Virus record (IMG/VR): IMGVR_UViG_3300027142_000014
Location: 1-40,376 of that record
DNA from: a virus
Strand: one strand, 5' to 3'
DNA length: 40,376 bases
Made by a program: the position numbers and the translations under genes. This document shows, piece after piece, positions 15,035-36,022 of the stretch. The notes below the pieces were generated by a model. It saw only the letters and a list, made by a program, of their open reading frames with translations. It did no database searches and had not been told where the DNA came from. The first letter of the stretch is position 1. Each line of letters opens with the position of its first letter.

Positions 15035-15086
15035 GAAAAAAAAAATCAGAAAAAAAATAAAAAAAGGGCTTGACAGAGGGGGGTGG

Positions 15087-15101
15087 CCGGGCCGGGCCCG
15101 G
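15087..15101. repeat. CCGGGCCNGGCCCGG palindrome, copy 1 (centre G)
   Basis: Perfect 15-base palindrome with a free centre base, followed by TTTTGTCAAGC and an A/T tract before the next promoter. First of seven copies. Confidence 0.85.
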
Positions 15102-15170
15102 TCAAATTTTGTCAAGCAAAAAAGCGTGGAAAAGTGAAAAAAAAATCCACAAAAAAAACCGAAAAAAAAC

Positions 15171-15205
15171 TTGCGTGCAGCTGTTTTTCCTCCATACTCT
15201 GCATC
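15171..15205 (+). promoter_or_regulatory. Leaderless promoter
   Basis: TTGCGT (15171), 16-base spacer, CATACT (15193), 7 bases, ATG at 15206. No ribosome binding site. Confidence 0.7.
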
Positions 15206-15388
15206 ATGAAAAACGAACTAAAGAAAGGTCACCTCTACTTTCACCTCAAGAATGCTCGCGTTGAGCGCATCGTCGCGATCAACGGCAAGACGATTGAGCA
15301 TCGTCACCACAACGTTGCCAGCGTGTCCAAGGCGAAGAGTTTCCGCCTCGCGACTCGCGAGGAGGTTCTCGCCTACCTCGGGAAATAA
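15206..15388 (+). CDS. Small protein, paralogue of the 18114-18338 product
   Basis: The ATG fixed by the promoter gives 60 residues. LKKGHLYFHLKNARVERIV and RLATREEVLAYLG align with MKNGQLWYNTRTRRVERVI and RPATSAEVREYLDG of the gene 3 kb downstream, defining a small two-member family with a K-G-x-L-W/Y start and an A-T-x-x-E-V-x-x-Y-L end. Function unknown; the compact basic fold may bind nucleic acid. Confidence 0.7.
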   Translation: MKNELKKGHLYFHLKNARVERIVAINGKTIEHRHHNVASVSKAKSFRLATREEVLAYLGK

Positions 15389-15413
15389 AAAATCAGAAAA
15401 AGCGAAAAAACGC

Positions 15414-15448
15414 TTGCAACTCTCCCTTTCTCTCTTATCCTGTCTCTC
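15414..15448 (+). promoter_or_regulatory. Leaderless promoter
   Basis: TTGCAA (15414), 16-base spacer, TATCCT (15436), 7 bases, ATG at 15449. The spacer is a CT-repeat tract. Confidence 0.7.
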
Positions 15449-15688
15449 ATGAATAACTACTCAATCAAATGGACCAGCGGTTTCGTCCTTAACATCTCCG
15501 GTTGCGTTTTCACCGTTGCGGGAACGAATCAGGTTTTGCAAGATTTCGGCTGCGCCAACGGTATGCCGAATAGCTGGTTTCACCAGTTCAAGGGCATGAA
15601 GGAATACCAGTTTGAAGTGGGGCGTTGCCTCACCCGCTACGTCGTGCCAGAGGCTGGCATCACTTACACCATCGACAGCTCGGACTAA
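15449..15688 (+). CDS. Small protein of unknown function
   Basis: 79 residues, beta-rich, with three Cys and several aromatic residues (MNNYSIKWTSGFVLNISGCV; GRCLTRYVVPEAG). No recognised family. Own leaderless promoter; the next gene follows 30 bases later without a convincing promoter and may share the transcript. Confidence 0.6.
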   Translation: MNNYSIKWTSGFVLNISGCVFTVAGTNQVLQDFGCANGMPNSWFHQFKGMKEYQFEVGRCLTRYVVPEAGITYTIDSSD

Positions 15689-15718
15689 ATAAAAAATCAA
15701 CCCTCACTTTTTTTCAAC

Positions 15719-15910
15719 ATGATTGCCAAATATACACTCAAGAACATTTCCCTTGCGTCTGAACTGACTGTTAAGATGCAGTTCGCCGTGATTCCCTCGA
15801 CAATTCCTTATCAATACCACGACGAAATCCAGAAGTGGATGCGCGAGATGGTCCGCAAGGCAGAACAGAATGCGGAGATTTATGCGGAGGAAAAATTCGG
15901 GAAGATTTAA
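15719..15910 (+). CDS. Small protein of unknown function
   Basis: 63 residues (MIAKYTLKNISLASELTVKM): an N-terminal strand region and a C-terminal charged helix (KWMREMVRKAEQNAEIYAEE). No ribosome binding site and no clear promoter upstream, so probably read from the preceding transcript. Confidence 0.55.
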   Translation: MIAKYTLKNISLASELTVKMQFAVIPSTIPYQYHDEIQKWMREMVRKAEQNAEIYAEEKFGKI

Positions 15911-16043
15911 TATAGGGACTATATAGTCCCCCTGTTGTTTATATAGTGTTTTATATAGCGCTATATCAAACCGGGCCTGGCCCGGCGAAATCGTGTCAAG
16001 AAAAAAAAGAAAAAAAAATCGAAAAAAAAATCGCAGAAAAAAG
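15911..16043. repeat. Mosaic intergenic repeat block (TATATAG array + palindrome)
   Basis: In order: TATAGGGACTATATAGTCCCC (a local palindrome), TATATAGTG, TATATAGCGCTATAT, then CCGGGCCTGGCCCGG (15971-15985), CGTGTCAAG and a long A-tract leading to the next promoter. Same order of parts as the blocks at 16.62, 18.42, 20.82 and 22.09 kb. Confidence 0.75.
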
Positions 16044-16078
16044 TTGACCGCACCAAAAAAAGTTTCATTCTCTCTCTC
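16044..16078 (+). promoter_or_regulatory. Leaderless promoter
   Basis: TTGACC (16044), 16-base spacer, CATTCT (16066), CTCTCTC, ATG at 16079. Confidence 0.75.
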
Positions 16079-16249
16079 ATGAACCTGATCAACCTGTTCC
16101 CCCGCTCTGCTGCTGAAGAAATCGCTGCTCTCTCCCCTGCGGAGATTGCCGAGATGGAGGCGTTTTTCGCCTTCGTGGATTCCGTGAACGATGAGGCCGA
16201 AGCCGCTTGGGATCGCTTCGCGGCGGATGTCGATGCGGGGGCGCGGTAA
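16079..16249 (+). CDS. Small acidic helical protein
   Basis: A 56-residue ORF (MNLINLFPRSAAEEIAALSP start) rich in Ala and Glu with helical periodicity (EIAEMEAFFAFVDSVNDEAE). Supported by a promoter ending exactly at the ATG and a terminator whose loop contains its stop codon. Function unknown. Confidence 0.65.
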   Translation: MNLINLFPRSAAEEIAALSPAEIAEMEAFFAFVDSVNDEAEAAWDRFAADVDAGAR

Positions 16250-16263
16250 GCGCCCCTTTTTTT
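16238..16263 (+). terminator. Rho-independent terminator containing the stop codon
   Basis: GGGGCGC (16238-16244), loop GGTAA, GCGCCCC (16250-16256), then T7. The TAA stop of the gene lies in the hairpin loop, so coding sequence forms the left arm. Confidence 0.85.
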
Positions 16264-16277
16264 CTTTCACTTTTTTC

Positions 16278-16312
16278 TTTACCTGCACGAATTTTTTCTT
16301 ACTCTTATCCCC
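16278..16312 (+). promoter_or_regulatory. Leaderless promoter
   Basis: TTTACC (16278), 16-base spacer, TACTCT (16300), 7 bases, ATG at 16313. It begins 15 bases after the preceding terminator. Confidence 0.65.
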
Positions 16313-16621
16313 ATGAATCAGATCAACCTCGCTCTCACCCTCACCGAAGCTTCCCTCGTTCTCGCCGCGCTGCGCGATGCCGCCGACGCGATGAACGCGC
16401 CGCAGCTGGATGCGGTCATCGACACCCTACAGGCGTCCTACAACGCCGCCCATGAGGAGCCGTTTGACGGCTTCCGCACCGATGCGGAAGCGGATGCGGA
16501 TGCCCTCGCGTCTGCGGGTCACGGCACCGACGAGGACTACGGGTCCGCCCACGATAATCACGACTACCCCCCAGAAGGTGACCATCACTACTACTCCCCC
16601 TTTGAAGACGACGGCTATTGA
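16313..16621 (+). CDS. Small acidic His/Asp-rich protein
   Basis: 102 residues. The first 50 form two Ala/Leu-rich helices (LTLTEASLVLAALRDAADAM); the rest is low-complexity acidic with His and Tyr (AEADADALASAGHGTDEDYG; ending FEDDGY). The acidic tail may be disordered, DNA-mimicking or metal-binding; all guesses. No family recognised. Confidence 0.6.
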   Translation: MNQINLALTLTEASLVLAALRDAADAMNAPQLDAVIDTLQASYNAAHEEPFDGFRTDAEADADALASAGHGTDEDYGSAHDNHDYPPEGDHHYYSPFEDDGY

Positions 16622-16817
16622 TATAGCCTCTATATAGGGGACTCTACATCCCTTTATATAGTGTTTATATAGCGTGTGGGGAATTTTCCCCAACCGGGCC
16701 AGGCCCGGCACCCCCCTGTCAAGCTTTTTTTCAAAAAAAATCGAGCTTCATTTCCAAATGAAATGTTCCACGACGCGCAGAATGTTCCACGCTCCAAAAA
16801 AAAATTTGAAAAAAAAG
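16622..16817. repeat. Mosaic intergenic repeat block with TGTTCCACG direct repeats
   Basis: TATATAG motifs (16621-16675), GGGGAATTTTCCCC (16678-16691), CCGGGCCAGGCCCGG (16694-16708), CTGTCAAGC, an A-tract, then two TGTTCCACG direct repeats (16764-16772 and 16783-16791, 19 bases apart) that equal half of a parS-like site. No ORF supported. Confidence 0.75.
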
Positions 16818-16852
16818 TTGACCGCACAAAAAAAATCGTCATTCTCTGAGAC
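16818..16852 (+). promoter_or_regulatory. Leaderless promoter
   Basis: TTGACC (16818), 16-base spacer, CATTCT (16840), CTGAGAC, ATG at 16853. Confidence 0.75.
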
Positions 16853-17128
16853 ATGAAAACAACCAACACCGAAACCACCACCAAGGTCACCGTCACCGAG
16901 AAGGCCATCACGAATCTGATCGCGAATGTCGAAATGACTTACGTTCCCGATCACTGCATGGCCACCCGCACCATAAAGGTGGGCGAAATCGTCGCGAAGC
17001 GCGAAAGCGACGCTGGTTGGTACGCTCCTTGGGCCTTCGAAGGCAACCCCGTCGAAAATTTCCGCGTCGAAAAACTTCTGGTCACTCGGAAGATCACCAC
17101 CGAAATCACCACCAACGTGATCGAATAA
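16853..17128 (+). CDS. Small Thr-rich protein of unknown function
   Basis: 91 residues with Thr-rich ends (MKTTNTETTTKVTVTEKAIT; TRKITTEITTNVIE) around a folded core (YVPDHCMATRTIKVGEIVAK; GWYAPWAFEG). No family recognised. Monocistronic by its own promoter and the next promoter 19 bases after the stop. Confidence 0.6.
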   Translation: MKTTNTETTTKVTVTEKAITNLIANVEMTYVPDHCMATRTIKVGEIVAKRESDAGWYAPWAFEGNPVENFRVEKLLVTRKITTEITTNVIE

Positions 17129-17146
17129 AAAATCTGAAAAAAAAAT

Positions 17147-17181
17147 TTGACTTCACGGATTTTTCCGTCATTCTCTCCTTC
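17147..17181 (+). promoter_or_regulatory. Leaderless promoter
   Basis: TTGACT (17147), 16-base spacer, CATTCT (17169), CTCCTTC, ATG at 17182. The spacer holds a short ACGGATTTTTCCGT inverted repeat that could be an operator. Confidence 0.75.
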
Positions 17182-17367
17182 ATGAAAAACTACCGCTGGT
17201 CTTCGATCATCATCGCGCAAGGGGAAAACTGTGAAGCCGCTTGGAAAGCGTGCCAAGCTCGCGCCATGAAAAACGACGTTTTCCAAATTGTCCCCGCTAC
17301 CTTCACGGAGTACATCGTCGAATTTTCCTCCGCGAATCGCACCGTTTTCCGCTGGTTCAAAAAGTGA
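17182..17367 (+). CDS. Small basic protein of unknown function
   Basis: 61 residues (MKNYRWSSIIIAQGENCEAA; FRWFKK end), alpha-beta pattern with Trp and Arg at both ends. No family recognised. Own leaderless promoter. Confidence 0.6.
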   Translation: MKNYRWSSIIIAQGENCEAAWKACQARAMKNDVFQIVPATFTEYIVEFSSANRTVFRWFKK

Positions 17368-17377
17368 AAAAAAGTTG

Positions 17378-17412
17378 TTGACGAAACAAAAAAAATCTCC
17401 ACACTCTCTCTC
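17378..17412 (+). promoter_or_regulatory. Leaderless promoter
   Basis: TTGACG (17378), 16-base A-rich spacer, CACACT (17400), CTCTCTC, ATG at 17413. Probably drives everything to the hydrolase gene and beyond. Confidence 0.75.
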
Positions 17413-17601
17413 ATGAACAAAAACGAAATCAAAGAAATCTACCTCAAGGGTGCGATGAAGAATCTGCTGGGTCAGATTGAATTTTATCTCCCCGCCAACG
17501 TGAGCCAGAAGGCCACCCGCGAATTCCGCGAGCGTCTCAACCGCGAGCTTGCCGAGATGGAGCAACGCGCCGAAGCTTACGCCACCAAGGTCACCTCATG
17601 A
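17413..17601 (+). CDS. Small helical protein of unknown function
   Basis: 62 residues, helical and charged (IKEIYLKGAMKNLLGQIEFY; REFRERLNRELAEMEQRAEA). First gene of a short operon ending in the cell wall hydrolase; its stop overlaps an ATG (ATGA at 17598). Confidence 0.6.
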   Translation: MNKNEIKEIYLKGAMKNLLGQIEFYLPANVSQKATREFRERLNRELAEMEQRAEAYATKVTS

Positions 17602-17822
17602 AATCAGTAAATGAAAGACAATTCGCCTATCTCCTGCAAAAATATGAATGGAACACCGAGCTTGTGGAAAAGCATCTTACTTTACGCGGTTTTTCGCGTG
17701 TTACTGCTGACGCTGCTTTTTGGGGCCGTCTCATCGCTGCGGGCGCAGAGCGCCACGGTCAGCGTCTCGCGTGGGGAGATTGTTGCGGCGACTCTGATCT
17801 TGGAAGCGGGTGGGGAGGCTGA
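17598..17822 (+). CDS. Possible overlapping small ORF, alternative frame to hydrolase 5' end
   Basis: Opens with an ATGA overlap to the upstream gene. Its first 48 residues (MKSVNERQFAYLLQKYEWNT, LVEKHLTLRGFSRVTADAAF) are protein-like, yet it shares about 200 bases with the hydrolase signal-peptide region in another frame and ends in a Gly-rich tail. It could be a small lysis-associated protein or only a coupling leader. Confidence 0.35.
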   Translation: MKSVNERQFAYLLQKYEWNTELVEKHLTLRGFSRVTADAAFWGRLIAAGAERHGQRLAWGDCCGDSDLGSGWGG

Positions 17823-18117
17823 TCCCCGCGCAATGGCGGCGGTTCGCGAGGTGATCGCGAATCGCGCCAAGAATAAAACGGAGCTTGCCGTTTGCCTTGC
17901 GCCGAAACAATTTTCCTGTTGGAATAAAATTTCAGTTGAGCGCGGGATTGAAATCGCGAAGCGTCATCCGAAATGGTCCCACGCTCTCGCTTTAGTTAAT
18001 CAGAAAACGAATTATACTAGCGGCGCGACTCACTATCACGCCCAAAAAGTTTCGCCAAGTTGGGCGAAAAAGCTTGCCAAGACGGTCAAAATCGGACATC
18101 ATATCTTCTACAAATGA
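17611..18117 (+). CDS. SleB-like cell wall hydrolase with signal peptide
   Basis: The frame allows starts at 17611 or 17644 (MNGTPSLWKSILLYAVFRVL); the latter gives a clean signal peptide with a hydrophobic core and an AQSA cleavage-like site. The mature part matches the cell wall hydrolase SleB/Hydrolase_2 family: EAGGEADPRAMAAVREVIANR with catalytic Glu, CLAPKQFSCWN, HPKWSHALALV, TSGATHYHA and IGHHIFYK. It would cleave peptidoglycan for host lysis and be exported by the host. About 120 mature residues is normal. Confidence 0.85.
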   Translation: MKDNSPISCKNMNGTPSLWKSILLYAVFRVLLLTLLFGAVSSLRAQSATVSVSRGEIVAATLILEAGGEADPRAMAAVREVIANRAKNKTELAVCLAPKQFSCWNKISVERGIEIAKRHPKWSHALALVNQKTNYTSGATHYHAQKVSPSWAKKLAKTVKIGHHIFYK

Positions 18118-18338
18118 AAAACGGTCAACTGTGGTACAATACAAGGACGCGCCGAGTCGAGCGCGTGATTGCAACGGGGCCGCGCGTCTGCGCGACTTCT
18201 TTTCACCGCGAGGATCTTGTGGGGTGGCCCAACTCTTACTTGCGCCCCGCCACTAGTGCGGAAGTACGAGAATACCTTGACGGCACGGAAGGTCGTCGGT
18301 CTGTAGTAACTACAGAGGGGCGCTTGGCCTACGCTTGA
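18114..18338 (+). CDS. Small protein, paralogue of the 15206-15388 product
   Basis: ATGA-coupled to the hydrolase gene; 74 residues. It shares MKxGxLWYN, RRVERVI, ATxxEVxxYL with the 60-residue protein at 15.2 kb and carries an extra C-terminal tail (EGRRSVVTTEGRLAYA). Function unknown. Confidence 0.65.
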   Translation: MKNGQLWYNTRTRRVERVIATGPRVCATSFHREDLVGWPNSYLRPATSAEVREYLDGTEGRRSVVTTEGRLAYA

Positions 18339-18556
18339 TTATATAATTTTTTCTGTGGAATAGTACGCAAGGAGAGCTTGCGGCATGGGGGAGTTTATGA
18401 CCCCTTCATTAAACACCACGGAAATTATATAGCGTTTATATAGGCACTATATAGTGTTTATATAGCCGGGCCGGGCCTGGTTGGGGAATTTTCCCCAATA
18501 TGCCCATGTCAAGCTTTTATTTGATATTTATTTATTTGCTGATTGTTATTTTGCTG
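18339..18556. repeat. Mosaic intergenic repeat block with hairpins
   Basis: Begins with a hairpin region (CGCAAG-GAGAG-CTTGCG at about 18368-18384, GGGG/CCCC pair following, enclosed by GTGG/CCAC) that may be structured RNA. Then four TATATAG motifs (18425-18465), CCGGGCCGGGCCTGG (18466-18480, one mismatch), GGGGAATTTTCCCC (18483-18496) and CATGTCAAGC. A weak TTGATT-N18-AATAGT pair spans the previous stop. No ORF supported. Confidence 0.6.
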
Positions 18557-18591
18557 TTGCGTCTGCTGATTTTTTAATCACACTCTTAACC
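18557..18591 (+). promoter_or_regulatory. Leaderless promoter
   Basis: TTGCGT (18557), 16-base spacer, CACACT (18579), CTTAACC, ATG at 18592. Confidence 0.7.
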
Positions 18592-18810
18592 ATGCAACTA
18601 ACCAAACGATGCCAATTCAACGGGCAAATCTACACGATGGATTTCCCCACGATGACTGAAGAGCAATACGCTACGGCTTTGATGAAATGCGATCTTGGCA
18701 CTCTGATTCAAGAAGCATTTTTTTTCTTGACCGCTGATGAGCGCGAGTTCATCATGACTGGTACTCCTCCCCATGTCTGGGAAGAAATGTTTGCTGAACA
18801 AGAATCATGA
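18592..18810 (+). CDS. Small acidic protein of unknown function
   Basis: The promoter sets the start at MQLTKRCQFNGQIYTM, giving 72 residues; an upstream in-frame start would lie in repeat DNA. Helical second half (EFIMTGTPPHVWEEMFAEQE). First gene of a four-gene overlapping operon. Confidence 0.65.
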   Translation: MQLTKRCQFNGQIYTMDFPTMTEEQYATALMKCDLGTLIQEAFFFLTADEREFIMTGTPPHVWEEMFAEQES

Positions 18811-19166
18811 AAATCAAAACTGAAGTCTACTTTAACCTGCGTAAGCACATGCTGTCGATTCGTGTCAATGGTAAGGTGATTGCCCATGCCCCTGCCATTA
18901 CCCTCGACAATCCCACGTTCCATGTTAGTGAGGCGGGGCGGCAGCGCGTGCTGAAGAACAAGCGCAAGAATGTTCATGCGTGGGTGCGCGGAGATTGGGA
19001 CAATTATCTCCGCACAAATTGCACCACAGTAATCCCCGAAAATTCTGTTGAAGTTACTTACAATCCCTACAAGTATTCCACTTTTGTGCTTGCAAAGGAT
19101 GGGTCGCCAATTAAAAATGCCCGTTACGTTGCCATCTACGGGAAAAGAATCTTTGCTCAACTATGA
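18807..19166 (+). CDS. Basic beta-rich protein of unknown function
   Basis: 119 residues, ATGA-coupled. Beta-rich and basic (KTEVYFNLRKHMLSIRVNGK; RQRVLKNKRKNVHAWVRGDW), resembling small nucleic-acid-binding phage proteins, but no family is recognised. Confidence 0.6.
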   Translation: MKIKTEVYFNLRKHMLSIRVNGKVIAHAPAITLDNPTFHVSEAGRQRVLKNKRKNVHAWVRGDWDNYLRTNCTTVIPENSVEVTYNPYKYSTFVLAKDGSPIKNARYVAIYGKRIFAQL

Positions 19167-19363
19167 AACCAATGATTGAACCTACCTACGCATACCTGCG
19201 CGGTGTGCTTGATGCTTACAACAAAGGCTCGTATGATTACGAGGCCGTGAAGAAGATGAACAGCCCCAACGCTGGCAGCGATTACAAGGCTGGTTACGAC
19301 AAGGGAATGACAATCTATTGCGACGACAATAATCTCGACACGGAAGAGCATCTGAACTACTAA
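19163..19363 (+). CDS. Small protein of unknown function
   Basis: 66 residues (TYAYLRGVLDAYNKGSYDYE; SDYKAGYDKGMTIYCDD), ATGA-coupled to the upstream gene. The YxxGYDKGM pattern is common in small phage proteins of unknown role. Confidence 0.6.
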   Translation: MKPMIEPTYAYLRGVLDAYNKGSYDYEAVKKMNSPNAGSDYKAGYDKGMTIYCDDNNLDTEEHLNY

Positions 19364-19368
19364 ACCAA

Positions 19369-19557
19369 ATGAATCTCGACAACCTAATCACTAACCTTGA
19401 ATTTAGGATTGCTTTTGCCGAAACTAATCTCCGTTACATTGCCAGCGAACCACTCTATGAGCCTCGACGCGAAGAGTTGCGCGAATTCAATCTAAAAGTG
19501 ATCGAAGACACTAAGCGCGAATTGGCCGAAGCATTAAAAAAGCAACGAGGTCAATAA
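19369..19557 (+). CDS. Small coiled-coil-like protein
   Basis: 62 residues, highly charged helix (NLEFRIAFAETNLRYIASEP; EFNLKVIEDTKRELAEALKK). Last gene of the operon starting at 18592. Function unknown. Confidence 0.55.
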   Translation: MNLDNLITNLEFRIAFAETNLRYIASEPLYEPRREELREFNLKVIEDTKRELAEALKKQRGQ

Positions 19558-19601
19558 AAAAATCGGAGTTTTGCTGTAACTTTTTGGTTGCAGCTTGGCC
19601 T

Positions 19602-19616
19602 CCGGGCCAGGCCCGG
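19602..19616. repeat. CCGGGCCNGGCCCGG palindrome, copy 5 (centre A)
   Basis: Perfect palindrome 45 bases after the operon stop, followed by CGTGTCAAGC at 19623-19632 and the RNA promoter. No TATATAG motifs at this copy. Confidence 0.85.
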
Positions 19617-19672
19617 CGAATGCGTGTCAAGCAAAATCTCTCTCCCAACTAAAAATAAATTCAAAAAAAACA

Positions 19673-19707
19673 TTGCACACGGCGCACACTCTGTCATTCT
19701 CACTCTT
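19673..19707 (+). promoter_or_regulatory. Promoter of the structured RNA
   Basis: TTGCAC (19673-19678), 16-base spacer, CATTCT (19695-19700), then CACTCTT. The geometry matches the leaderless promoters, but no ATG or GTG is at the predicted +1 near 19708; a highly structured sequence starts there. Confidence 0.65.
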
Positions 19708-19921
19708 GCTGACGGGGAGAAACCAAAGCCGTGAAGACTCCCTAGTCACTCATCACATAGGAGATGAGCAGCGCGGCTCCAATTTAGTTCTTTAAGATTT
19801 TTAGAGCATCCGGTCAACACTCCAGTAGGGTCGCTCCCTGCGTTCTAAAGTCAATTGTTCTGGCACCCGCGAAGTACCAGAACAAGAGACGCCGAGGAGA
19901 GTGCTAGCTCTAATCTTTTTT
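19708..19921 (+). ncRNA. Candidate structured non-coding RNA
   Basis: No convincing ORF and many helices. A possible 5' pseudoknot: ACGG (19712-19715) with CCGT (19729-19732), and GGAG (19716-19719) with CTCC (19738-19741). Hairpin CTCATC/GATGAG (19749-19768). A closing helix AAGAT...TAGAGC (about 19795-19807) pairs with GCTCTA.ATCTT (19907-19917) and encloses AGGG/CCCT (19827-19839) and a perfect 9-bp stem TTGTTCTGG/CCAGAACAA (19855-19885). It ends in TCTTTTTT. Not recognised as tmRNA, RNase P, 6S or a known ribozyme. Expected to act as RNA. Confidence 0.6.
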
Positions 19922-20000
19922 GCAATGAACCCAAAGATAAGGCGGGGGTTGGGCTGACCCAACACTAGCGCGTGAAAGCTCGCGCCATTGCATTTTTTTT
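19921..20000 (+). ncRNA. Second structured RNA domain with terminator
   Basis: Closed by TGCAATG (19921-19927) pairing with CATTGCA (19986-19992) and followed by T8. Inside are GTTGGG-CTGA-CCCAAC (19948-19963) and GCGCG/CGCGC (19968-19985), giving a multibranch fold. It may be the 3' domain of the upstream RNA, a separate RNA, or a large terminator before the next promoter, which starts two bases later. Confidence 0.55.
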
Positions 20001-20001
20001 C

Positions 20002-20038
20002 TTGCTTTTTTTAATTCTTCAACCATACTGACAGCACG
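20002..20038 (+). promoter_or_regulatory. Near-leaderless promoter
   Basis: TTGCTT (20002), 16-base spacer, CATACT (20024), 9 bases, ATG at 20039. Confidence 0.6.
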
Positions 20039-20230
20039 ATGAACGACCTTCACCTACTCCCTCCTCAAGCTGACATTGACGCCGCATTTGAAATTGAAAA
20101 GAATGTGGGGCAGAATAATCGCAGCCTTTACTTGGACTACATGAACAATGTTCCCATGTCTGCGCGCAAGACACCGAGAGAGTTGCGCGATGGCTGTATG
20201 CTCGCTCAACTTTTTAAAAATAATACTTGA
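20039..20230 (+). CDS. Small protein of unknown function
   Basis: 63 residues (MNDLHLLPPQADIDAAFEIE; KTPRELRDGCMLAQLFKNN). No family recognised. Its TGA stop lies within the TTGACG -35 element of the next promoter. Confidence 0.6.
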   Translation: MNDLHLLPPQADIDAAFEIEKNVGQNNRSLYLDYMNNVPMSARKTPRELRDGCMLAQLFKNNT

Positions 20231-20260
20231 CGTTTCTGAATTTTAATTCAAACTGCTGCC
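20227..20260 (+). promoter_or_regulatory. Leaderless promoter overlapping upstream stop codon
   Basis: TTGACG (20227; its TGA is the stop of the previous gene), 16-base spacer, CAAACT (20249), 6 bases, ATG at 20261. Confidence 0.7.
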
Positions 20261-20473
20261 ATGATCATTGCTGACACTCCCTCTGCTATTCTCGCATACC
20301 GCCTGCTCGCTATGAAAAGCGCGCTGAAGCTTGAAACTCTGGGACTGAGTAGTTCTCGCGGCTCAGTCTCTAACGATGTCCGCTACCTGTGCGGCTCCCG
20401 CACTCGCGACAAAAAGAAATTGCTTGCCGAATTCGAAAATCATCTCAAGCATCACGGCTTCCTCAAATCATAA
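20261..20473 (+). CDS. Small basic protein of unknown function
   Basis: 70 residues (MIIADTPSAILAYRLLAMKS; RTRDKKKLLAEFENHLKHHG), helical and basic. No family recognised. The next gene starts 4 bases after its stop. Confidence 0.6.
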   Translation: MIIADTPSAILAYRLLAMKSALKLETLGLSSSRGSVSNDVRYLCGSRTRDKKKLLAEFENHLKHHGFLKS

Positions 20474-20477
20474 TACC

Positions 20478-20813
20478 ATGAAACTCGTCATCAATAGAAC
20501 CGACATTATCGATGTTTTCGCCGCCAAGAGTGGGCTGGAACCTCATCAGATTGAAATCGACATTGTGTCCCAGCCTATTGTCCCTTCGTTTCCGAAGATC
20601 AATTCGCTTAACGATGTCGAAGTTCGCACCGCAATCGCATCGATTTTCGATGAAGCTATGAACATTCAAGACCAGTATCGCGAGGGCAAGACCGTTTGCC
20701 CTAACAAAATCAGCCTCATCAAAGCGGTTCGCACTCTCGTCCCCAACACCTCGCTCAAGGACGCAAAGGATTATGTAGAGAACAATCTTCTTGATTATCG
20801 ACGCTCGTTTTAA
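20478..20813 (+). CDS. Protein with ribosomal L7/L12 C-terminal-like domain
   Basis: The start follows the previous stop by 4 bases; 111 residues. The C-terminal part KISLIKAVRTLVPNTSLKDA-KDYVENN follows the L7/L12 CTD pattern K-x3-I-K-x-V-R-x(6)-L-K-x-A-K-x-x-V-E. In ribosomes this domain recruits translation factors; free phage copies have no settled role. The N-terminal 75 residues are unassigned. Similarity judged by eye. Confidence 0.6.
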   Translation: MKLVINRTDIIDVFAAKSGLEPHQIEIDIVSQPIVPSFPKINSLNDVEVRTAIASIFDEAMNIQDQYREGKTVCPNKISLIKAVRTLVPNTSLKDAKDYVENNLLDYRRSF

Positions 20814-32274: not shown

Positions 32275-32350
32275 TGGTAGCCGCAGTGGGATTCGAACCC
32301 ACACTGAAATCATTTTAAGTGATTTGACTCTGCCGTTGGTCTATGCGGCC
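32275..32350 (-). tRNA. tRNA with UAA anticodon (Leu by codon, short variable loop)
   Basis: 76 bases with encoded CCA. Acceptor GGCCGCA/TGCGGCT (one G-U), anticodon arm AATCA-CTTAAAA-TGATT (anticodon TAA reading UUA), T arm GTGGG-TTCGAAT-CCCAC. The variable region is only 5 bases, whereas bacterial tRNA-Leu has a long variable arm. D stem is imperfect (bulge). Confidence 0.8.
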
Positions 32351-32415
32351 AAAAAGATTGGAATACGCTAAGTTTTTGAGAAAAACGATTTACTTTTAGT
32401 GTAAAGAAATAAGTT

Positions 32416-32844
32416 ATGAAAAAATATAGAAACTATACTGATGAACAGGTTATTGAAGTTGCGAAGAATGTCAAGAGTATTGCTGCATTTCTTCGCGGTC
32501 TTGATCTAAAACCTGTAGGAGGTAATTATTATACCGCTCACTGTTTGATAGAAAGATTGGAAATTGATACTTCTCATTGGACTGGTAAAGTATGGAATAA
32601 AGGATCGATGTTAAAGAACTGGTCAAATTATTCAAAAGCTTCGTGTTTAAAACCACATTTAATTAAAGATCGCGGACACGTTTGCGAATCGTGCAAAAAT
32701 ACACATTGGTTAGAAGAACTAATTAAATTGGAAATACACCATATCGATAATAATAGAACTAACAATCAACCATCTAATTTGCAATTGCTATGTCCAAATT
32801 GTCACTCAGTGACTGACGGATGGAGAAAGCGGAAAAAAAATTAA
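32416..32844 (+). CDS. HNH endonuclease
   Basis: 142 residues on the opposite strand to its neighbours, between two tRNA genes. HNH core: CESCKNTHWLEELIKLEIHH, then IDNNRTNNQPSNLQLLCPNC and HSVTD; the CxxC pairs bind structural zinc and HH...N...H forms the active site. N-terminal region with TDEQVIEVAKNVKSIAAFLR is a HTH-like DNA-binding segment. A free-standing homing-type endonuclease is likely, given its antisense position in a tRNA array. Confidence 0.88.
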   Translation: MKKYRNYTDEQVIEVAKNVKSIAAFLRGLDLKPVGGNYYTAHCLIERLEIDTSHWTGKVWNKGSMLKNWSNYSKASCLKPHLIKDRGHVCESCKNTHWLEELIKLEIHHIDNNRTNNQPSNLQLLCPNCHSVTDGWRKRKKN

Positions 32845-33197
32845 ATCGTGTAATCTATTGCTACTATAGCACCTCTGTTGAGATAGTCAATAGCTCTTCT
32901 CAATAATCGTTCATCATCGTTGAATCGACCAAGAGCAAGATTGCAGTTATTGCATATATAACCGCGAAATTCATGAGAGAAATGACAATGATCCAAAATC
33001 CAATCTTGCGTATGGTTTCCGCAGATGGGACATTCACCAGCTTGAGGCGGGGGATTTTCATCTTTTAATTTTTTTCTGAGAACTGATAATTCTTTGCAGC
33101 AAACTGTGCAAGTGTTTTTTCTGCCTCCAGTTGACGAGGCGAAGAACGGGAATTGTTCAATTTCTTTTTTCTCCCCGCACTTGCGGCATTGCTTCAT
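32841..33197 (-). CDS. Endonuclease VII-like Holliday junction nuclease
   Basis: 118 residues. Zinc pairs CRKCGEKK and CTVCCKE at the N-terminus, then CPICG, and the endonuclease VII core LDHCHFSHEFRGYICNNCNL followed by ALGRFNDD and LRRAIDYL. The family (T4 gp49) resolves branched DNA before packaging and is also found as homing-like nucleases. Tail-to-tail with the HNH gene (4-base overlap). Confidence 0.88.
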   Translation of the reverse strand: MKQCRKCGEKKEIEQFPFFASSTGGRKNTCTVCCKELSVLRKKLKDENPPPQAGECPICGNHTQDWILDHCHFSHEFRGYICNNCNLALGRFNDDERLLRRAIDYLNRGAIVAIDYTI

Positions 33198-33232
33198 TGA
33201 ATCATAGTAATGTTTAGTTTGTGTATTTCAAT

Positions 33233-33307
33233 TGGTGGTGCCACTGGGATTCGAACCCAGAACCAACGACTTAAAAGGACGCTGCTCTACCGTTGAGCTA
33301 TAGCACC
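33233..33307 (-). tRNA. tRNA-Lys (UUU)
   Basis: 75 bases with CCA encoded. Acceptor GGTGCTA/TGGCACC, D arm GCTC/GAGC, anticodon loop CTTTTAA (TTT), T arm TCTGGG-TTCGAAT-CCCAG. A T-T mismatch occurs at position 30-40 of the anticodon stem. Confidence 0.9.
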
Positions 33308-33313
33308 GAAATT

Positions 33314-33538
33314 TTAAAACTCAGGTCTAAACTTTTCCAATTCGACGGAATCGGACTTCAAGTACTTTTGCACCATCTTCATTTTCATTCCCATTCTCTT
33401 TGCGATATCACGAACATTCATATTGTGTTCGTGACGAAGATGCAGGATATGAAGTCTCAGAATATTCCTGTCATCATACGGTGAACCGCGACTTCCAAGG
33501 TCATAGAGTTGGGCTTCAGTTAATTGAACGTAAGACAT
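33314..33538 (-). CDS. Small helix-turn-helix protein
   Basis: 74 residues. MNVRDIAKRMGMKMKMVQKYL is a clear HTH (residues 40-60), preceded by LTEAQLYDLGSRGSPYDDRN. Probably a small regulator or the DNA-binding part of a homing-type element; located between tRNA-Lys and tRNA-Ile. Confidence 0.7.
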   Translation of the reverse strand: MSYVQLTEAQLYDLGSRGSPYDDRNILRLHILHLRHEHNMNVRDIAKRMGMKMKMVQKYLKSDSVELEKFRPEF

Positions 33539-33546
33539 TGTGAAAT

Positions 33547-33623
33547 TGGTTGTCCCGCTGGGATTCGAACCCAGAACCTAGCCCTTATAAAGAGCTTGCT
33601 CTAACCAGTTAAGCTACGAGACA
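33547..33623 (-). tRNA. tRNA-Ile (UAU)
   Basis: 77 bases with CCA encoded. Acceptor TGTCTCG/CGGGACA, D arm GCTT..GAGC, anticodon arm AGCTC-TTTATAA-GGGCT (TAT), T arm CTGGG-TTCGAAT-CCCAG. Reads AUA directly. Confidence 0.9.
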
Positions 33624-33631
33624 ATGTAAAT

Positions 33632-33707
33632 TGGTGGGCGGTGAAAGACTTGAACTTTCACTCAAAGGATTATGAGTCCTCTGCTTTAACCATTAAGCTA
33701 ACCGCCC
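33632..33707 (-). tRNA. tRNA-Met or Ile2 (CAU)
   Basis: 76 bases with CCA encoded. Acceptor GGGCGGT/ACCGCCC, anticodon arm GAGGA-CTCATAA-TCCTT (CAT), T arm GAAAG-TTCAAGT-CTTTC. Elongator Met versus lysidine-modified Ile cannot be decided by eye; the acceptor is not initiator-like. Confidence 0.88.
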
Positions 33708-33709
33708 AT

Positions 33710-33786
33710 TGGCGCGAGGACCGAGAATCGAACTCGGAACCAGCAGTTTAGAAAACTGCTGCTCTATCCAGTTGAGCTATCCCCGC
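33710..33786 (-). tRNA. tRNA-Arg (UCU)
   Basis: 77 bases with CCA encoded. Acceptor GCGGGGA/TCCTCGC, anticodon arm GCAGT-TTTCTAA-ACTGC (TCT), T arm CCGAG-TTCGATT-CTCGG, discriminator G. Confidence 0.92.
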
Positions 33787-33791
33787 GAAAT

Positions 33792-33866
33792 TGGAGCAGC
33801 AGATGGGATTCGAACCCACAACATCCAGCTTGGAAGGATGGCGCTCTACCATTGAGCTACTGCTGC
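33792..33866 (-). tRNA. tRNA-Gly (UCC)
   Basis: 75 bases with CCA encoded. Acceptor GCAGCAG/CTGCTGC, anticodon loop CTTCCAA (TCC), T arm GTGGG-TTCGAAT-CCCAT/C region, discriminator T. One T-C mismatch in the anticodon stem. Confidence 0.9.
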
Positions 33867-33875
33867 TAGTTTTAA

Positions 33876-34118
33876 TTAATTTAAAACCTGTTCTTGGGGT
33901 TGATTCTTTAGGCGTTCACGCTCCCGAGCAAGACGACGCATTTGATTCTGATACTTGCGATCTTTCTTTTCGTCATAATTCAGAGCAGCTTGAAACTCAT
34001 CACGATACTTGGCAAGGATGAAGTTGTAAGTCTTCATCGTGGAGGCGGCAACTGCCGCATCCGAATAACCGTTGAACGAATCAACGGAGTTGCTGGGCAA
34101 AGGAGCGTTTTCGTCCAT
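33876..34118 (-). CDS. Small charged protein
   Basis: Start taken at MDENAPLPSNSVDSFNGYSD (80 residues). Acidic N-terminus, basic helical C-terminus (QNQMRRLARERERLKNQPQE). Function unknown; 8 bases downstream of the next gene in the run. Confidence 0.55.
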   Translation of the reverse strand: MDENAPLPSNSVDSFNGYSDAAVAASTMKTYNFILAKYRDEFQAALNYDEKKDRKYQNQMRRLARERERLKNQPQEQVLN

Positions 34119-34126
34119 TGTATTAA

Positions 34127-34417
34127 TCAAATAAATACAGTGTGATACTTGAAATATTTTTGGCAACGATGAATAAACGCATCGTAGCGGTGGCTCATCG
34201 ACATAGGAATCGGAGCAACTGAACACTTCCGAGAGCGTTCGTAAGCTATTTCAACACCCATTTTTGAATTAAAACGATCTCCAGCAGAGCCGTTGCACTT
34301 TGACCAACCGATATAAATTTCAGTTGGATTCAAGTCATTGACCGTAGCAGCAAATACTCCGATTCGCTGCCTCTTCTTGTTTAGGATGTAAACGTGAATT
34401 CCTTGTGGATTATTCAT
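34127..34417 (-). CDS. Protein of unknown function
   Basis: Start taken at MNNPQGIHVYILNKKRQRIG (96 residues). Beta-rich N-terminal half (GVFAATVNDLNPTEIYIGWS), basic C-terminal half (MSHRYDAFIHRCQKYFKYHT). The opening resembles small phage proteins of unknown function. Leader of roughly 20-25 bases from the promoter at 34446-34474. Confidence 0.6.
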   Translation of the reverse strand: MNNPQGIHVYILNKKRQRIGVFAATVNDLNPTEIYIGWSKCNGSAGDRFNSKMGVEIAYERSRKCSVAPIPMSMSHRYDAFIHRCQKYFKYHTVFI

Positions 34418-34445
34418 GATTGTGGTTATGAGCTTCGATGATGTA

Positions 34446-34474
34446 AAGATACCTTGTGCTGCGGGTTTCGTCAA
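34446..34474 (-). promoter_or_regulatory. Promoter overlapping upstream stop, minus strand
   Basis: TTGACG (34469-34474; TGA is the stop of the oxygenase gene), 17-base spacer, TATCTT (34446-34451). Confidence 0.55.
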
Positions 34475-35139
34475 GAGTTTTCCGCGAGAATTTTGTAGTC
34501 GATCTCAGTAATTCGGCTGTAGCTGCCGCACTTATGCTTGGTTAGCGAGTTATAAGCAAGACTAATCCGCTTCTGATTTGACTTGTTGGGTGGCACTGAA
34601 TGAGGTAGGTAAGATGGGAAAATAATAAAATCTCCGTTTTTCAAATTAATAGGCATAATGGAATCGGTGTACTTTTTTTCTCTGTCTGGATTAGCTGGAT
34701 TAAAAGGCTTTGGATCAATAAAATTTCTTGTTGTTTGAGCGTAAAGTTTATGAAAAACGATTACGTTATTGCTGTCCGTAGCTTCCAAATAAAGCACGCC
34801 AGAGGCAATTGAATTAGGATGAATGTGCTGTTGTGTATGTTCGTTTGGGTAGTTCCAGTTGACCCAACTCTGAGTCAACAAGCATTCGCCGTCAACATTC
34901 ATTTTATTCCGAATGAAATTTGTCGTTTGTTCGCAGATGAAATTTTTAAGATTAATAAATCTTGGGTCATTCAAGATATATTTGTTTGTACTGAAATGAT
35001 GGGTTGAACCCATGTTTCTGTCAGACGGATGCTCCTCTTCTTTCTTCAAAGAGTCAAATTCTTTCTTAAACTTTTTTCCAAGATTCATCTTGACCAGAGG
35101 AATCGGAAACATGTCAAGCGTTTCAGTTTGGATTTTCAT
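34471..35139 (-). CDS. 2OG-Fe(II) oxygenase
   Basis: Start taken at MKIQTETLDMFPIPLVKMNL (222 residues), overlapping the upstream gene by 17 bases. Jelly-roll dioxygenase of the type common in phages: SWVNWNYPNEHTQQHIHPNS, ASGVLYLEA, then NGDFIIFPSYLPHSVPPN (distal His) and KRISLAYN (2OG-binding Arg). The HxH-type proximal motif is as in the phage TIGR02466-like group. Substrate unknown; may hydroxylate protein or nucleobase. Confidence 0.82.
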   Translation of the reverse strand: MKIQTETLDMFPIPLVKMNLGKKFKKEFDSLKKEEEHPSDRNMGSTHHFSTNKYILNDPRFINLKNFICEQTTNFIRNKMNVDGECLLTQSWVNWNYPNEHTQQHIHPNSIASGVLYLEATDSNNVIVFHKLYAQTTRNFIDPKPFNPANPDREKKYTDSIMPINLKNGDFIIFPSYLPHSVPPNKSNQKRISLAYNSLTKHKCGSYSRITEIDYKILAENS

Positions 35140-35401
35140 TTTCGAGTTCACGATATTTTTGCTCTGCATCTTCTCTAGCATTTGGCCCGCCATAATACCA
35201 GCCTTTTGTGCCAAAATCTTCATCTTTGGGCAAATATTCTGCCGGTTCAATTTTAACTCCTTTAATTTCATATCCGTTGTGTTTTTGGATCAACACAACT
35301 TCGTAGCCACCGCACTTATAATACATTGCAACCTTGTCGGTGCGCTTAACCTGCTTCATGGAATAACCATGATTTTTCATTTCAATTGGGAGTGGTTTCA
35401 T
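35123..35401 (-). CDS. Small conserved phage protein
   Basis: 92 residues (MKQVKRTDKVAMYYKCGGYE; VEVVLIQ-like strand; YLPKDEDFGTKGWYYGG). The phrase EYLPKDEDFGTKGW recurs in phage proteins of unknown function. ATGA overlap with the upstream gene. Confidence 0.65.
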   Translation of the reverse strand: MKPLPIEMKNHGYSMKQVKRTDKVAMYYKCGGYEVVLIQKHNGYEIKGVKIEPAEYLPKDEDFGTKGWYYGGPNAREDAEQKYRELENENPN

Positions 35402-35592
35402 GTAAGACGATTATGAAATACTTTTGAACACTGCTTCAATCCATTAGCTTTTAAATGAGCGGAAGCCCATTTTAGTTGAGTGTAACAATCTTTGCAAACA
35501 TATCCAACGTCAATGTCTTGACGGCATTCTTCTACGTTGGGATCGAACTGATACTCGCAGCACTGGCAAATAACGATTGCTGGCGCGCTCAT
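35398..35592 (-). CDS. Small zinc-binding-like protein
   Basis: Start taken at MSAPAIVICQCCEYQFDPNV (64 residues), ATGA-coupled to the upstream gene. Two CxxC pairs (CQCC, CKDC) separated by about 25 residues form a probable zinc knuckle. Function unknown. Confidence 0.65.
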   Translation of the reverse strand: MSAPAIVICQCCEYQFDPNVEECRQDIDVGYVCKDCYTQLKWASAHLKANGLKQCSKVFHNRLT

Positions 35593-35942
35593 GACCAAAT
35601 GCGATGCTTTTCAGCAATCCATTCATTACCATCATAATCTTGAAGCGTCCATTCAACGTCATGAGGAATGTCAACAATTTTGAGTGAGCTATAAGAGTCG
35701 GCGGCTTCTTTTAAGCCAAGTTCTTCTACTGTTTCAAGTAAAACAGGATCGTCACGTTTCAAATCGTGTTCACTAAAATAATTGCCGTCAACATAAAAAA
35801 TAAGACGGCGATCAGAAATCGCTGAACTTTTCTTTTCAGTTGTAAATTTCAACCTCTTCTTGTTAAGATAAAGCTCGACAGCTTTATCACTTAAACCGAA
35901 ACCACCGAAATCAGCGTTAATTAATACTTTGCGAGTTTTCAT
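35589..35942 (-). CDS. Conserved phage protein (INADFGGFGLS family)
   Basis: 117 residues. KVLINADFGGFGLSDKAVEL, RDDPVLLETVEELGLKEA, SLKIVDIPHDVEWTLQDYDG and EWIAEKHRIW are conserved features of a widespread phage hypothetical; biochemical role unknown. Confidence 0.75.
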   Translation of the reverse strand: MKTRKVLINADFGGFGLSDKAVELYLNKKRLKFTTEKKSSAISDRRLIFYVDGNYFSEHDLKRDDPVLLETVEELGLKEAADSYSSLKIVDIPHDVEWTLQDYDGNEWIAEKHRIWS

Positions 35943-35947
35943 AATTT

Positions 35948-36022
35948 TGGAGCCTCCAGTCGGATTCGAACCAACGACCTACAGTTTACAAAACTGTTGC
36001 ACTACCACTGTGCTATAGAGGC
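35948..36022 (-). tRNA. tRNA-Thr (UGU)
   Basis: 75 bases with CCA encoded. Acceptor GCCTCTA/TGGAGGC, anticodon arm ACAGT-TTTGTAA-ACTGT (TGT), T arm GTTGG-TTCGAAT-CCGAC, discriminator T. It lies 5 bases upstream of the INADFGGFGLS gene start. Confidence 0.92.

Follow-up and report, generated by a model that had tools for sequence, protein, structure and literature searches.

In bacteriophage T4, a pseudoknot at the 5' end of the gene 32 mRNA is a translational operator bound by gp32, the gene's own product (PMC535899). It comprises about 28 nt, lies beside UUAAA repeats and the Shine-Dalgarno site, and has been kept by some relatives, whereas others such as RB49 apparently lack it (PMC535899). 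The manA (RF01745) and wcaG RNA motifs are found in the 5' UTRs of genes of T4-like cyanophages (PMC2864571). Small RNAs encoded by phages have been reviewed (PMC12197685), and three-stemmed H-type pseudoknots of the riboswitch kind are treated in PMC11262651.

The locus described here lies in a 40.4-kb linear virus record (IMGVR_UViG_3300027142_000014; its 40,376 nucleotides are called the window) with terminase, PhoH, rIIA/rIIB and clamp loader genes; the IMG/VR sample numbers of its relatives suggest a freshwater origin. We read its first 79 nt (domain 1, 19708-19786, plus strand), with a probability of about 0.5, as a phage cis-regulatory leader RNA, of a new RNA family, that is now uncoupled from its gene. 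Like the gene 32 operator, domain 1 is a pseudoknot 5' of the initiation region of a phage gene and is present in some relatives and missing in others. Unlike it, domain 1 is 79 nt long with an inserted hairpin, has no UUAAA repeats and belongs to a gene without family match; by analogy the T4 operator may serve as the nearest worked example. With manA and wcaG domain 1 shares the position of a structured RNA in the 5' UTR of a phage gene and the occurrence in aquatic metagenomes, but its sequence and its downstream gene are different ones and it has no Rfam match at E<=10. As with phage-encoded small RNAs, a noncoding transcript (here predicted) is encoded in a phage genome; the conserved part of the locus, however, derives from a gene leader. 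Three-stemmed H-type pseudoknots occur in some riboswitches. Domain 1 resembles these in its two crossing stems, an extra loop hairpin and conserved loop letters, and differs from them in that its gene context points to no metabolite and that it has no Rfam match and no known ligand.

The locus is preceded by a predicted promoter of the class that this phage uses for its leaderless genes (19673-19700, plus strand), composed of TTGCAC (19673-19678), a 16-nt spacer and CATTCT (19695-19700), which is kept in the related contigs L002, L003, L004 and L087. In the window, TTG-N19-CATNCT occurs 8 times against 1.84 expected, a number that 0 of 100 shuffles reached. The same promoter with an ATG or GTG 6-9 nt past the -10 hexamer was counted 11 times (1.84 expected; maximum of 7 in 50 shuffles). 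Eight ORFs at 15-21 kb are preceded by the identical arrangement, with a 16-nt spacer and an ATG 6-9 nt after the -10 hexamer, and therefore their mRNAs should be leaderless. A promoter cluster of this kind (TTG-N19-CANNCT, ATG 6-9 nt downstream) is seen at 15171-20254 of the window and in the relatives L002-L006. Leaderless mRNAs, made from one shared class of promoters with a strict 16-nt spacer, thus seem to be in use in this phage group. At the 19708 locus, GCTGACGGGG stands in place of the ATG, no start codon is present and G19708, the usual +1 base, is the predicted transcript start. An earlier sequence-only reading had claimed a promoter of the same class and the lack of a start codon at +1, and both are confirmed; the locus shows no coding signal either. 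The sequence around the transcript start, TTGCTGAC (19706-19713), is repeated where the 70-aa ORF begins further downstream, ATTGCTGAC (20267-20276), as it is in L003 and L087.

The predicted fold of domain 1 consists of stem S1 (19715-19719 with 19738-19742), stem S2 (19727-19733 with 19772-19778), which crosses S1, and hairpin P4 (19749-19754 with 19763-19768, loop ACAUAGGA). The stacking energy of S1, S2 and P4 together is -36.1 compared with -21.3 +/- 3.0 for shuffles, and 0 of 500 shuffles were as good. The candidate 5' pseudoknot of the earlier reading is present as a predicted pair of crossing stems with more than chance stability. A competing hairpin of the nested fold, GACU/AGUC, is broken by an A at column 38 in L002, L003 and L087. 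The 5' end could additionally pair through GCUG (19708-19711) with CAGC (19769-19772), which is invariant and overlaps S2 by one base; that it is part of the fold is a suggestion only. The fixed loops of domain 1 are AAACCNAA, AAGA, UARUCAC and ACAUAGGA.

Homologue scans with 19708-19786 covered 2.9 million viral contigs (IMG/VR) and found three other contigs with domain 1: L002, L003 and L087. The four sequences align without indels, with 67 of 79 columns invariant. The window and L087 differ at 11 of the 79 positions, as opposed to 18 of 27 fourfold sites (67%) in the adjacent 70-aa ORF. Seven of these 11 changes are located in the P4 stem, where three pairs are altered on both sides and still paired and one pair is broken. 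The three compensatory pairs were matched by 7 of 500 shuffles; slid controls gave 0-1. The P4 loop is kept in the four phages except for one C/U exchange. S1 and S2 never vary in the four sequences, compensatory changes being confined to P4, and the pseudoknot itself therefore offers no covariation test. Domain 1 is evidently old enough to be common to the distant L087. A set of 84 loci and the whole records of relatives contained no convincing remote copy beyond these four (best other E 0.04), the rest of the window no second copy, and the phage isolate records only chance matches of 24-31 nt to the locus. Apart from L002, L003 and L087, the matches of loose patterns among IMG/VR and GTDB genomes lacked the rest of the motif and were rejected as chance. 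A 22-bit match in a Verrucomicrobiales MAG comprised only the AGAAACCAAAGCC stretch, located where an ORF apparently ends, together with the S2 partner; S1 and P4 were absent.

A search of Rfam 15 with 19540-20060 gave no match at the gathering threshold or at E<=10, tmRNA, RNase P, 6S, ribozymes and riboswitches included. ARAGORN found seven tRNAs elsewhere in the window and no tRNA or tmRNA at the locus, in line with the earlier statement that it does not read as tRNA, tmRNA, RNase P RNA, 6S or a familiar ribozyme core. The seven genes (Leu, Lys, Ile, Met, Arg, Gly, Thr) lie on the minus strand at 32275-36022, five of them in 33.2-33.9 kb. Resemblances to hammerhead, HDV-like and tmRNA structures seen by eye were dropped, because the letters of the cores disagree and Rfam has no match. 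The GGA in loops prompted consideration of a CsrA decoy; the CsrA-binding consensus is ANGGAN, and the spacing does not fit it. Nucleotide-level constraint, homologues, covariation in one hairpin and the lack of an Rfam match support the reading of domain 1 as a new phage regulatory RNA.

In two relatives, L003 and L087, the promoter and the 70-aa ORF (20261-20473 in the window, plus strand) are separated by domain 1 alone, which is for this reason regarded as a leader: it is conserved and structured and reaches from promoter to start codon, as phage cis-regulatory leaders do. In L004 most of domain 1 is deleted, a remnant is kept and the 70-aa ORF follows; in L006/L085 this ORF begins, without a leader, 7 nt past the -10 hexamer CACTCT. 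The truncation in L004 and the absence from L006 mark domain 1 as dispensable. The 70-aa protein has relatives in many large phage records. A three-helix fold is predicted for it with moderate confidence, and neither Pfam nor a fold search of the PDB gave a match. A short stretch of the neighbouring ORF at 20481-20813 resembles the C-terminal domain of ribosomal protein L7/L12 (Pfam E 4e-5, narrowly missing the cut-off).

In the window, the leader is followed by a 458-bp insert relative to L004 (19786-20243), which is bordered by AATTT direct repeats (19781-19785 and 20239-20243), absent from L003, L004 and L087, and seen only in the window and its near relative L002. The insert carries two structured pieces, domains 2 and 3 (19787-20001), and, on the same plus strand, a 63-aa ORF (20039-20230) and two promoter matches. 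TTGCTT-N16-CATACT (20002-20029) belongs to the 63-aa ORF, and the promoter-like TTGACG-N16-CAAACT (20227-20254) precedes the 70-aa ORF, whose ATG follows at a distance of 6 nt. With both downstream genes thus provided for, the leader would be uncoupled in the window. The 63-aa ORF has relatives without the RNA in other phages (L090-L092); neither it nor the 70-aa ORF has a homologue among phage isolate records.

Domain 2 (19794-19921, plus strand) is a set of hairpins closed by 19794-19807/19907-19917 beside U6 (fold z -2.9 to -3.4), and domain 3 (19921-20000, plus strand) is a multibranch fold (z -2.1) closed by TGCAATG/CATTGCA (19921-19927/19986-19992) and followed by U8 (19993-20000), the probable transcript end, with a terminator-like match at 19970-19985. 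Domain 3 is present as first described. The long-range helix claimed next to the U-run is also present (UUAGAGC/GCUCUAA, 19801-19807/19907-19913, then U6), but the minimum-energy fold uses the competing helix UUUAGAGC/GUUCUAAA (19800-19807/19842-19849) instead. UUUAGAGC can thus pair with GUUCUAAA or with the GCUCUAA before the U-run, an attenuator-like alternative. The perfect 9-bp hairpin (19855-19863/19877-19885) exists in the window, but two of its nine pairs, 19855-19885 and 19860-19880, are broken in L002. The folding check that had been proposed gave, besides the pseudoknot energy above, a nested fold of the whole locus with z = -2.6 to -2.95 (0-2 shuffles as good).

Between the window and L002, domains 2 and 3 differ at 7 of 216 sites and by two one-base indels. 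Most substitutions fall in the region of the 9-bp hairpin; outside it about 2 of 185 sites are changed, the other helices hardly vary and the paired positions of domain 3 are identical. The surrounding tract (~19100-20050) diverges from L002 by 1-6% against 10-24% downstream, and its synonymous sites are likewise changed by a few percent only. This points to a recombination mosaic between the two phages, and recent exchange would explain most of the similarity of domains 2 and 3, because the whole tract is of low divergence. Two patterns detected no further copy of these domains elsewhere in IMG/VR. For domains 2 and 3 the support is thermodynamic (z about -2 to -3) and not evolutionary. The proposed homologue and covariation check gave, for domain 1, homologues with three compensatory pairs and one broken pair in P4 and no variation in S1 and S2; for domains 2 and 3 it gave no covariation.

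These data bear on other explanations of the locus. The whole transcript (19708-20001) could be a purpose-built trans-acting noncoding RNA, i. e. an sRNA, sponge or decoy, in which domains 2 and 3 are functional. The window locus has what is typical of a stand-alone phage sRNA at the sequence level (its own promoter, a terminator-like U-run end, no ORF), the next genes have promoters of their own, and the near absence of change outside the 9-bp hairpin could reflect function. Yet domains 2 and 3 are missing from L003 and L087, which carry domain 1, covariation is lacking, two pairs of the 9-bp hairpin are broken in L002, and the similarity of these domains lies within the recombination tract; we therefore regard this explanation as possible but doubtful. 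Alternatively, domain 1 may lead a longer mRNA in the window as well, with transcription running on through domains 2 and 3 into both downstream genes (63 aa and 70 aa) and the folds acting as attenuators. The rival helices beside the U-run would suit such a mechanism, but two U-runs intervene and both genes have their own promoter matches with exact 16-nt spacing, which makes it unlikely.

Two further explanations concern domain 1 itself. All four phages have an open forward frame from 19706. In L003 its stop overlaps the start of the 70-aa ORF (ATGA) and in L087 it enters this ORF in-frame, as might be expected if a short leader peptide (UUG or CUG start at 19706/19709) were coupled to the 70-aa ORF. 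However, there is no ATG or GTG start, and between the window and L087 the codon changes are 5 nonsynonymous to 1 synonymous, with 1 of 11 fourfold sites changed compared with 18 of 27 in the neighbouring gene. Instead of the excess of synonymous change of a protein-coding leader, this is the opposite of the pattern of a constrained protein. It indicates that the frame is not coding, which makes a leader peptide very improbable and agrees with the claim of the sequence-only reading that the locus has no ORF. The location of the 79 bp directly downstream of the promoter would also suit a DNA element such as an operator or a recombination site. But near identity over 79 bp is long for an operator, and the stem-preserving double changes in P4, the conserved loop and the significant pseudoknot are features of RNA, so that a DNA element is scarcely credible.

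The favoured interpretation is the uncoupled leader. A pseudoknot starting at the first base of the transcript would stand between a promoter that otherwise makes leaderless mRNAs and the gene of a small helical protein, and would control the expression of the 70-aa gene. Most likely a protein or another factor would recognise the fixed loops and thereby alter translation or stability of the mRNA; by analogy, fixed loops and a covarying stem in a 5' leader have the look of a recognised regulatory element. With neither a Pfam nor a fold match for the 70-aa protein, autoregulation by it is only an analogy. In the line of descent that the window and L002 share, the insert brought in the two structured pieces with U-runs and the 63-aa gene and placed new, predicted promoters before both genes, so that the leader no longer directly precedes the 70-aa gene and is probably released as a noncoding transcript of ~290 nt. 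As a separate RNA it probably ends at one of the U-runs, 19916-19921 or 19993-20000; its ends and any continuing activity in trans are what we infer. The view of the locus as a new phage regulatory RNA is thus retained for the first 79 nt, which are conserved, constrained and noncoding, and not for the locus as a single unit: domains 2 and 3 are a lineage-specific insert, and in L003 and L087 the conserved part does not stand alone.

If this is right, an undescribed family of structured leader RNAs is added for phages. One locus would then show a leaderless gene, a structured leader, a truncated leader and an insert-uncoupled leader, a series on which the idea that an mRNA leader can give rise to a noncoding RNA could be tested; it would also show how a phage with leaderless genes accommodates a structured 5' leader. 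More speculatively, and in our view rather improbably, the leader could be an aptamer-like, switchable pseudoknot that was cut loose by insertion in one lineage and became a trans-acting RNA; this would be such an origin caught in mid-process.

Upstream of the promoter, at 19601-19637 (plus strand), lies a palindrome, CCGGGCC.GGCCCGG, followed by GTGTCAAGCAAAAT. It is an intergenic element repeated upstream of many promoters of the phage group, with further copies in the window at 15065-15125, 15960-16010 and 16700-16745 and at many sites in L002-L006 and L087. Often CTTGACA...TGTCAAG and A-runs flank it, just upstream of promoters; perhaps it is a terminator or an operator.
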